Below, one piece after another: positions 56,061 to 57,543 of a stretch of DNA of 64,000 nucleotides. The notes beneath the pieces were generated by a model that was not told the origin of the DNA, did no database searches, and saw only the letters and a program-made list of their open reading frames with translations. The position numbers were made by a program, and so were the translations under genes. Position 1 is the first letter of the stretch; each line of letters opens with the position of its first letter. The stretch is from Vulcanimicrobiota bacterium (GTDB lineage: Bacteria; Vulcanimicrobiota; Vulcanimicrobiia; Vulcanimicrobiales; Vulcanimicrobiaceae): the NCBI GenBank assembly GCA_027307235.1, contig DAHUXH010000007.1, positions 124,001 through 188,000 of the forward strand, in the 5' to 3' direction.

Positions 56061-56462
56061 GTGCGCATTCACACGTTCACCGCGGTGCTAGCCCTCGGAG
56101 CGATCCTCATGGCAGGATGCTCGTCCAACAAATCGAGTGAAAACGCCGGCGGCACAACGGCGACGCAGCAAGCGTCGGCGGCGCCGGCGCCGGCGGCGAG
56201 CGCGGCTGCCATGAGTCACGTCGCGCCCGGCGACGCGGGGCACGGCAAGCAGATCTTCATGCAAGACTGCTCGTCCTGTCACGGAGCGCATGGTGAAGGC
56301 GGCATCGGTCCCGCGCTTACGAATGAGAGTTCGCGTAAGAATCTAGCCGCGGCGATCGCATGGATCGAAGACCCAAAACCGCCGATGCCCAAACTCTACC
56401 CTAGCCCGCTCACCGAAAAAGACGTTACCGACGTCGCCACTTTCGTTGAATCCCTAAAGTAA
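56061..56462 (+). CDS. Cytochrome c lipoprotein
   Basis: 133 residues from GTG 56061 with GGAGG 7 bases upstream. Lipobox ILMAGC, an Ala/Thr/Gln linker (about 20-55), and a c-type heme motif CSSCHGAHGEGG (about 73-78). The distal ligand is probably Met in PPMPKLYP. The closing helix is EKDVTDVATFVESLK. A small periplasmic electron carrier, related in layout to the cytochrome lipoprotein at 12.4 kb. A 104-base palindrome starts one base after the stop. Confidence 0.9.
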   Translation: MRIHTFTAVLALGAILMAGCSSNKSSENAGGTTATQQASAAPAPAASAAAMSHVAPGDAGHGKQIFMQDCSSCHGAHGEGGIGPALTNESSRKNLAAAIAWIEDPKPPMPKLYPSPLTEKDVTDVATFVESLK

Positions 56463-56566
56463 CGGGAAGCTCTGTTTTCCGCCATGCCTTCGTTGCGGAG
56501 AGGCTTGTGTACCGTAGTACACTGCGCCTCTCCGCGCCTCGGCCTGACGGAAAACAGAACTTCCCG
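56463..56566. repeat. 104-base palindromic intergenic element, copy C (reverse orientation)
   Basis: Outer arms CGGGAAGCTCTGTTTTCCG / CGGAAAACAGAACTTCCCG pair with one mismatch. Read on the minus strand, it matches copies A and B: CGTCAGGCCGAGGCGCGG-AGAGGC, centre GTGTACTACGGTACAC, then GCCTCTCCGC. GGAGAGGC/GCCTCTCC replaces GAAGAGGC/GCCTCTTC of copy B, a paired change. It fills the gap between the convergent cytochrome and HDO genes. Confidence 0.88.
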
Positions 56567-56573
56567 TCGCGCG

Positions 56574-57344
56574 TTACGCAGCAGCTAGCTTCAGGCGGTC
56601 GGCTTCTAAGCCGTTCCAGAAGGTGGCGACGGCGTCGAGCATGGCTTGCGCGGCGACGAGGAAGCGTTGCGCGTCGAAGGTGGGATCCACGGCGACCAGC
56701 GCGAGTTCGTCGTCGGTGTGCTCGGCGTGCGTCTCTTCGAGCATGTCGTGCCACGTCCAGAATCCGAGCGGCAACTCGGCGATGCGCTCTGCCTTGATGC
56801 GCTTCAGACCGGAGATCAGTTCTTTCCAGAATCCGGCCGCCGCCCAGTGTTCGATGGCGAACGACGCGCCGGCAGCCGTCGACGGATCATCCGAGCCGTA
56901 CCATTCCATCAACGCGTCGCAGAACGCGAGCGTGCTCGGGGTGCCGAAGCGGCGCTTGCCGATCTGCGCGAAGTCGAGTCCCAATACCCTGGCGAACTCG
57001 GTCAGCCATTCGAAGTGCCCGGCGCGAAAGCGGAACGTCCCCCCTTCGACCGTCCCCTCCTTGGTGAACGAGACGCCGAGTTCGTTGAGCAGAATCTCCT
57101 TGCCGGCGCGATATTGTGCGAGGTCCGGCGCGTTGATGCACTTGCGCAACTGCGCTTCCATGAAGAGATGGCTGAAGACCGAGAACTGCAGCGTGAAATG
57201 ACGCAGCTGTTCGTCAGTGGCCTCGCCGCGCGCAAACCACGTCGTGAACGCATTGCGAACGACGATCGGATGCGCACCGATGCGATCGTTGACCGCTGCA
57301 CGCAATTCGTCTAGACCGGTTTCGGGGCGGGGTTCGGTGATCAC
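56574..57344 (-). CDS. Heme-oxygenase-like diiron (HDO) protein, PqqC/CADD-like
   Basis: 256 residues from GTG 57344 with AAGGAG 5 bases upstream. The all-helical TENA/PqqC-type fold is suggested by long helices and by candidate metal ligands: Glu88 (NELG), His110 and Glu112 (AGHFEW), Glu165-His166 (AIEHW), and His199 plus Glu203/Glu204/His206 (WHDMLEETHAEH). Members of this group oxidise small molecules or peptides with two irons; the closest described ones are PqqC-like and CADD, which makes p-aminobenzoate from its own tyrosine. Which one applies here is unknown. The gene lies directly behind a tyrosine-rich mini-gene and a terminator, which suggests attenuation. No cofactor pathway gene is near. 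Confidence 0.72.
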   Translation of the reverse strand: MITEPRPETGLDELRAAVNDRIGAHPIVVRNAFTTWFARGEATDEQLRHFTLQFSVFSHLFMEAQLRKCINAPDLAQYRAGKEILLNELGVSFTKEGTVEGGTFRFRAGHFEWLTEFARVLGLDFAQIGKRRFGTPSTLAFCDALMEWYGSDDPSTAAGASFAIEHWAAAGFWKELISGLKRIKAERIAELPLGFWTWHDMLEETHAEHTDDELALVAVDPTFDAQRFLVAAQAMLDAVATFWNGLEADRLKLAAA

Positions 57345-57362
57345 GATCTCTCCTTGACGGCA

Positions 57363-57396
57363 GAAAAAAACCGCCTCGCGTCGGCGAGGCGGTTTT
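57363..57396 (-). terminator. Rho-independent terminator between mini-gene and HDO gene (candidate attenuator)
   Basis: Minus-strand hairpin CCGCCTCGC / GCGAGGCGG (9 pairs, 4-base loop), extended by AAAA/TTTT, then a run of seven T. It lies 25 bases after the mini-gene stop and ends 8 bases before the HDO ribosome site, so transcription into the HDO gene must pass it. Confidence 0.9.
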
Positions 57397-57420
57397 GAAG
57401 GCGTTTGAGCTGTTCTGTTC

Positions 57421-57504
57421 TTACGCGAGCAATACCGTTCTCGACCGACTCTCTGCGGAGTAGCCGTAATAGTAATAACCATAGGCGTAGGTGCGAACGA
57501 GCAT
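57421..57504 (-). CDS. 27-residue tyrosine-rich mini-gene (candidate leader peptide)
   Basis: Reads MLVRTYAYGYYYYGYSAESR followed by SRTVLLA and a stop. Seven of 27 codons are Tyr (positions 6, 8, 10-13 and 15). It has no ribosome-binding site; a sigma70-like promoter puts the transcript start about 4 bases before ATG, so it would be translated as a leaderless mRNA. A terminator and the HDO gene follow. Two readings fit: a leader peptide in a tyrosine attenuator, or a small precursor peptide for the HDO enzyme. I favour the first. Confidence 0.6.
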   Translation of the reverse strand: MLVRTYAYGYYYYGYSAESRSRTVLLA

Positions 57505-57514
57505 CTTAGGGCGC

Positions 57515-57543
57515 ACTGTAGCAGATTCAGCGCGAGCGTGCAA
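57515..57543 (-). promoter_or_regulatory. Sigma70-like promoter for the mini-gene and HDO gene
   Basis: On the minus strand, TTGCAC (57543-57538) and TACAGT (57520-57515) are separated by exactly 17 bases. The predicted start is near 57508, just 4 bases before the mini-gene ATG. It lies at the 3' end of the protease gene. Confidence 0.6.

Follow-up and report, generated by a model that had tools for sequence, protein, structure and literature searches.

A Putative Tyrosine-Reading Transcription Attenuator Upstream of a Haem-Oxygenase-Like Dimetal Oxidase Gene That Probably Supplies Tyrosine

Introduction

Leader-peptide attenuation is textbook knowledge. The trp, pheA, his and ilv attenuators of E. 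coli and its relatives share with the locus described here a short ORF carrying codons for the end product, four RNA segments pairing as 1:2, 2:3 and 3:4, an intrinsic terminator and a downstream gene that is biosynthetic (here by inference). For the aromatic amino acids, the aroR-aroF attenuator of Corynebacterium glutamicum has a Phe-Tyr-Phe leader and reportedly responds to Phe rather than Tyr (PMC11802643), and the uORFC-13-1 motif before aroF in Acholeplasma, a Phe uORF beside a terminator, was predicted by comparison (PMC8632094). On the enzyme side, precedent exists for a PheH that provides Tyr in biosynthesis (PMC7311316). The haem-oxygenase-like dimetal oxidases (HDOs) were reviewed in 2026 without any aromatic hydroxylation, and hydroxylation of an aromatic ring is not known from any characterised HDO (PMC13108848).

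We describe here a locus which is, in our reading, likely to be an attenuator reading Tyr-tRNA(Tyr) and controlling an HDO that most likely supplies tyrosine; no experiment has been made on the RNA or the enzyme. The window is the whole stretch of DNA that was analysed (64 kb), and its genome (G000) clusters with sequences that carry the label Candidatus Eremiobacterota.

Layout of the Locus

The order read directly from the sequence of the minus strand is a promoter-like pair, a 27-codon Tyr-rich ORF, an intrinsic terminator and the HDO gene. The features are as follows.

57515..57543, minus strand: sigma-70-like promoter, -35 TTGCAC at 57543-57538, 17-nt spacer, -10 TACAGT at 57520-57515
57421..57504, minus strand: leader peptide ORF of 27 codons, MLVRTYAYGYYYYGYSAESRSRTVLLA, read from the sequence, with Tyr-rich counterparts in family genomes and Melainabacteria
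57460..57489, minus strand: Tyr codon cluster, codons 6-15, putative stalling site; core YYYY is codons 10-13, 57477-57466
57443..57465, minus strand: hairpin 1:2, made of segment 1 (GGCTACTC, 57465-57458) and the opening part of segment 2; follows the Tyr run immediately
57433..57450, minus strand: segment 2 (AGTCGGTCGAGAACGGTA), 5' strand of the antiterminator, pairing with 57394-57380
57380..57394, minus strand: segment 3 (AACCGCCTCGCCGAC), 3' strand of the antiterminator; left arm and loop of the terminator
57364..57396, minus strand: intrinsic terminator 3:4, 13-bp GC-rich stem at 57396-57367, loop CGAC, seven T at 57370-57364
57348..57355, minus strand: Shine-Dalgarno-like AAGGAGAG upstream of the HDO start, read from the sequence
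56574..57344, minus strand: HDO gene, 256 aa, GTG start at 57344; predicted to fold as a haem-oxygenase-like dimetal oxidase and proposed to hydroxylate Phe to Tyr or to supply Tyr in an equivalent way

The leader ATG at 57504 lies about 10 nt downstream of the -10 element, which makes the ORF near-leaderless. Nearly all loci of the attenuator clade have a Tyr-rich ORF, and promoter-like elements are present in most of them; relatives carry theirs at the same position (e.g., TTGCAT-17/18-TAGACT), with the end of the -10 element 6-14 nt before the ATG. A generic consensus promoter scan of the window sequence did not flag this promoter. The seven Tyr codons stand at positions 6, 8, 10-13 and 15 of an ORF without Phe or Trp, and theirs is the sole run of at least four TAY codons in the 64-kb window when both strands are scanned. 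About 25 nt separate the leader stop from the terminator stem.

Beyond the HDO gene, a near-perfect hairpin of ~110 nt (56460-56575; MFE -82.5 kcal/mol, z -11.9) separates the HDO gene from the cytochrome c gene that converges on it, as a single copy in the window.

Conservation of the Layout

HDO is present in 22 of the 99 genomes of the window genome's family, and nearly all 22 carry the same leader, hairpin and terminator; the layout was counted in at least 20 family genomes and in 8 Melainabacteria loci. Within the family the Tyr codons are constant and the rest of the leader varies (MFASHLASTSYYYGRFDRSRPR, MFVLHSDAYYYYYYGYFDRSRQGTPLL and MLVAIGTAYYYYGRFEMNRPGVPLP; MFAPAYLIGSYQYRSASESVEPPIPVEP in genus g11). 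A scan of genome contigs found the same layout in Melainabacteria/Obscuribacterales, with leaders MIYNNSQPYYYYSYPQGVG, MSRSVNSYYYYYYRGPAGGA, MKHQNAYRYQYYYTSREVG and MTAKNAYSYYYYTYSPGVG. The stop codon of the Melainabacteria leaders falls inside segment 2, as expected if a ribosome finishing the leader must cover that segment. In the tree, the attenuator-bearing HDOs form one monophyletic clade with support of 100/100.

One locus of the family (L023, genome G060) holds only a truncated remnant of HDO, which is interrupted by an in-frame TGA and lacks a leader, and TyrA was not detected in its genome.

Three Mutually Exclusive Helices

The core of segment 2, AGUCGGC, can partner either segment 1 or GCCGAC together with the remaining left arm of the terminator. 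In the window the 2:3 duplex amounts to -19.0 kcal/mol. MFE z-scores of the 1:2 region alone against mononucleotide shuffles were uninformative, and covariation was used instead. The covariation alignment (A5) comprises 17 sequences; one N was inserted in the loops of L008 and L010 for alignment, those cells being otherwise unaltered. In helix 1:2, 92.6% of cells are paired and two-sided changes occur in 5 of the 8 pairs; in the conserved core of helix 2:3, 96.1% are paired and 2 pairs have changed on both sides; in terminator 3:4 pairing reaches 100%, with two-sided changes in 5 of the 10 pairs. When the partners were slid by 1-3 columns as a control, pairing fell to 3-64%.

A single change can be tracked through all four segments in genus g11, where C->U at column 32 is accompanied by G->A at column 11, G->A at column 96 and C->U at column 109, so that G11-C32, C32-G96 and G96-C109 become A-U, U-A and A-U. 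Exchanging segments between genomes weakened 1:2 (p=5e-5) and 2:3 (p=0.016) relative to each genome's own segments; the 2:3 result is modest and the shuffles were not corrected for relatedness. In each of the 11 genomes tried, the RNA below a ribosome stalled in the run adopted the same long antiterminator when folded without constraints. Once complete, the terminator exceeds the antiterminator in stability, and the choice between them must therefore be kinetic, as in known attenuators. Comparison thus shows three mutually exclusive helices, 1:2, 2:3 and 3:4, which share bases and are each backed by covariation.

The original prediction had described a promoter with 17-base spacing, an almost leaderless ORF of 27 codons, seven of them for Tyr, and, 25 bases after its stop, a terminator with seven T before HDO, and all of this held in the sequence and its relatives. 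Its reading of the layout as that of a tyrosine attenuator also held and is supported by the comparative data: the alignment of homologous upstream regions that it had called for shows a conserved Tyr run, a diverged surrounding leader and compensatory changes in all three helices. Its competing helix held in part. The segment was right and the register was wrong; the proposed pairing of 57456-57444 with ACCGCCUCGC was dropped, the conserved antiterminator being 57450-57433 with 57394-57380. That the locus is a ribosome-mediated transcription attenuator read through its Tyr codons is very likely, with translation of the leader, stalling, read-through and the response to charged tRNA-Tyr all inferred without experiment.

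Similar Leaders before Other Amino-Acid Genes

A covariance model built from the HDO leader (R1) was run on related genomes. It gave 20 matches upstream of HDO genes (E 2e-17 to 7e-8) and weaker ones (E 4.5e-5 to 0.1) upstream of amino-acid genes with fitting codons. Each weak match is marginal alone, and it is the agreement between codons and genes that carries the argument. Leaders with F/Y/W codons precede pheA/DAHP synthase genes (MTVAGWSYRYFYASC, MNRMFSYAYSFYFGG, MLTNRSLASAYYYYFC), one with F/W/Y codons precedes aroA (MRASFWYRSYYGYTE), one with L/V/I codons ilvB (MFAHNLVLVVVILIS) and one with Met/Thr codons the homoserine dehydrogenase gene hom (MTLSMSMAITMSMITTC); Cys-rich leaders stand upstream of a TauE-type exporter and an NMT1-type binding protein. 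Same-style leaders are found among loci L146-L165 of related genomes, for example L147, L148, L149, L152, L156 and L161. In the window genome itself, the pheA-DAHP-synthase fusion is preceded by an attenuator-like leader, MLNVCAYAYWHGWGRLPD, with Tyr and Trp and no Phe, followed by a terminator (L110:1290-1464, contig C10), in which GCCGATCC is complementary to GGATCGGC of the leader; this leader was not recovered by the R1 search. Attenuation looks widespread in the family as a way of controlling amino-acid genes, and, set against the matching codon-gene pairs elsewhere, a Tyr-only leader marks HDO as a tyrosine gene.

Two rival readings of the leader can be judged here. In the first, the small peptide itself would be the functional product, either a substrate peptide of HDO or a RiPP precursor, and there would be no sensor. 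HDOs can modify peptides (PMC13108848) and the peptide adjoins one. Against this, a strong terminator separates the peptide from HDO, the constraint falls on the RNA helices and not on the peptide, whose ends diverge, and same-style leaders precede unrelated amino-acid genes; we regard this reading as very unlikely. In the second, a Tyr-rich ORF would precede an ordinary terminator by chance, as short ORFs are common and the generic promoter scan came back empty. Conservation across two phyla, the covariation and the 20 matches of the RNA model before HDO genes all but exclude it. The attenuator remains the reading followed below.

The HDO Protein

The window protein matches Pfam PF14518 weakly, below its cut-off, and has no NCBIfam match at all, which leaves it outside the named families; the NCBIfam CADD model, without a match to it, gives weak matches in 3 of 25 relatives. 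Its AlphaFold model (pLDDT 86) finds its best Foldseek matches in CADD (8va9/1rcw), BesC, HrmI and PqqC. E88, E165, H199, E203 and H206 are invariant and H110 is nearly so. With a haem-oxygenase-like fold and a set of three His and three carboxylate ligands, membership of the HDO superfamily meets its test as predicted by the model, metal content being inferred. The test for PF00351 is not met, as the HDO fold differs from that of pterin-dependent phenylalanine 4-hydroxylase. HDO is proposed to act like PheH and not to belong to the PheH family; this activity is inferred, without an assay.

Tyrosine Supply in Genomes with and without HDO

With TyrA called as PF02153 over its cut-off, the gene is missing from 18 of 22 family genomes with HDO and from 24 of 77 without (Fisher p=4e-5); at genus level the figures are 5 of 6 against 7 of 32 (p=0.008). 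Only the genus-level test takes account of relatedness, and the MAGs are incomplete. An arogenate-dehydrogenase-type TyrA was not found in the TyrA-less family genomes with HDO, and pterin-dependent PheH (PF00351) was absent from all HDO-bearing genomes tested. The association has exceptions: attenuated HDO and TyrA occur together in three family genomes (G007, G014, G021), and 4 of 9 Melainabacteria genomes also have TyrA, of an arogenate-dehydrogenase-like kind. Genuine TyrA-like PF02153 matches were found in four Obscuribacter-type genomes.

Some candidates and one statement were rejected along the way. Weak PF02153 matches in three HDO-bearing genomes (G029, G101, G105) and in the HDO-less G032 are ProC, and that in G064 is 3-hydroxyisobutyrate dehydrogenase. 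A statement that Melainabacteria lack TyrA was withdrawn, as the matches in the four Obscuribacter-type genomes are genuine.

The sole family HDO without H206 is that of G048, a genome with TyrA, and its leader has lost the Tyr run as well. In G048 the aro operon consists of an attenuator, PDT-DAHPS, chorismate mutase, TyrA and PDT; in the window genome ribosomal-protein genes follow the PDT-DAHPS gene. The chorismate mutase and ribosomal genes are what we take them to be from the sequence, by eye. As a separate observation, the G048 copy (L021) also lacks H209 and residues ~92-105, and its leader (MFHTARVTVSLITVLVRG...) retains the hairpin and terminator; decay or a new specificity are both possible.

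Prephenate dehydratase is present in the window genome and was not detected in many HDO-bearing genomes, including several HDO-bearing genera, which leaves their Phe source open. In genus g37 (G086-G096), 10 of 11 genomes have no detectable TyrA, HDO or pterin-dependent PheH and do have prephenate dehydratase. They may make tyrosine by another route, their TyrA may be unrecognised, or they may be auxotrophs; a failure to find TyrA is accordingly no proof of need. No divergent HDO copies were found in genomes lacking both TyrA and HDO.

HDO Orthologues in Homogentisate Operons

HDO orthologues without a leader occur in Acidimicrobiia, Dormibacterota, Chloroflexota, Cyanobacteria and an Acidobacterium. 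They adjoin HPPD, often with homogentisate dioxygenase (HGD), in 29 of 31 loci, against none of the 28 loci of the attenuator clade. Those in homogentisate operons (L048-L079, L082, L083) are often divergent from an Lrp/AsnC regulator. PF00351 is absent from the genomes of these orthologues, and most of the genomes have TyrA. A single activity fits both settings, namely hydroxylation of the ring of Phe (or phenylpyruvate), which would feed the synthesis of Tyr where the attenuator is present and the breakdown of Phe in the homogentisate operons; this is inferred from genome context.

The original prediction held that orthologous HDO genes lacking both run and terminator would refute it. Such orthologues exist (Acidimicrobiia, Cyanobacteria) and are no refutation because they are located in homogentisate operons. 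Its suggestion that HDO expression rises when charged tRNA-Tyr is scarce stands as an interpretation supported by comparison, the response itself being inferred. It had also called the regulation new for the family: no Tyr-specific leader-peptide attenuator was found in the literature searched, most subscription journals being outside its scope, and the mode of control as such is the textbook one.

Two rival functions bear on the enzyme. The attenuator could respond to Tyr-tRNA while the HDO product needs Tyr: it might be a specialised metabolite derived from Tyr or, for example, p-aminobenzoate (pABA), made in the manner of CADD from a tyrosine of the protein itself. Among solved folds CADD comes closest, and it makes pABA from protein tyrosine (PMC13108848); weak matches to NCBIfam CADD occur in a few HDO members. 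Against this, scarcity of Tyr should not switch on a gene that consumes it, the missing TyrA and the homogentisate neighbourhood go unexplained, and the window protein has no NCBIfam match. We find this rival unlikely, and a CADD-like pABA synthase was rejected as the main function, as neither context nor direction of regulation fits. Alternatively, HDO may act one step aside, on phenylpyruvate to give 4-hydroxyphenylpyruvate or at a prephenate/arogenate step, with the logic of the attenuator unchanged. This possibility accounts equally for the Tyr codons, the missing TyrA and the HPPD neighbourhood, and some HDO-bearing genomes have no prephenate dehydratase. Against it, Phe hydroxylation is the oxygenase step without another candidate in homogentisate operons, PF00351 being absent, and the window genome does have prephenate dehydratase. 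It remains a possibility, though a less likely one.

Our preferred reading of HDO as a tyrosine-supplying enzyme is likely on indirect evidence, i.e., the anti-correlation with TyrA, the absence of PheH and the HPPD/HGD neighbours, with the activity inferred. That it is specifically a Phe 4-hydroxylase is favoured by a smaller margin, again as an inferred activity. A bolder reading, which we lean towards without pressing it, is that HDO is a pterin-independent dimetal phenylalanine 4-hydroxylase and an unrecognised route to Tyr. Under a Tyr-specific attenuator it would stand in for TyrA in parts of Eremiobacterota and Melainabacteria; in Acidimicrobiia, Cyanobacteria, Dormibacterota and Chloroflexota it would provide the Phe hydroxylase that the homogentisate pathway otherwise lacks.

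Proposed Mechanism

RNA polymerase would start a few bases upstream of the leader ATG with a ribosome following. With ample Tyr-tRNA the ribosome would clear the Tyr run, and segment 2 would either lie under the ribosome or be paired with segment 1; the 3:4 terminator would form and transcription would end before the HDO gene. With Tyr-tRNA scarce, the ribosome would stall at codons 10-13 and cover segment 1, so that segment 2 could pair with the left arm and loop of the terminator before its right arm is made, and HDO would be transcribed. HDO would then hydroxylate the ring of Phe (less likely phenylpyruvate) to give Tyr (or the keto acid), and in most of these genomes would stand in for TyrA. 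For the first three steps, anatomy and covariation are shown by comparison, and stalling and read-through are inferred from the established mechanism of attenuation; the enzymatic step is inferred from genome context. The RNA mechanism is well supported while the enzyme activity is inferred.

Comparison with Known Systems

Compared with attenuators of the E. coli type, the HDO locus differs in its Tyr-only codons, its near-leaderless start and its occurrence in Eremiobacterota and Melainabacteria, as well as in its gene, which is not known in amino-acid biosynthesis, and in having no match to an Rfam family. In the Rfam scan of the leader, Phe_leader scored 19.6 bits (gathering threshold 55) and Leu_leader 21.7 bits (threshold 50), only the terminator being matched. 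A T-box was rejected, none being among the Rfam matches at E<=5. The aroR-aroF attenuator of C. glutamicum shares an aromatic leader peptide upstream of an aromatic-pathway gene, whereas the HDO run is of Tyr only, without Phe; uORFC-13-1 differs in its Phe codons, its gene and its phylum. The PheH precedent resembles the proposal made here in that bacteria without TyrA obtain their Tyr mainly through a hydroxylase, but that enzyme is the pterin-dependent PF00351 protein, absent here, and the candidate here is the unrelated HDO. CADD/NePabS, BesC, HrmI and PqqC share the predicted fold and the carboxylate/His ligand pattern, and differ in identity (16-18%), in context and in having no known ring hydroxylation.

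The codon run acts as a label of function, pointing an uncharacterised HDO family at tyrosine. If our reading is true, a gap in tyrosine biosynthesis is filled in uncultured phyla, the HDO superfamily gains a role in primary metabolism together with a new reaction, aromatic ring hydroxylation, and it is explained how many homogentisate operons begin from Phe without PheH.
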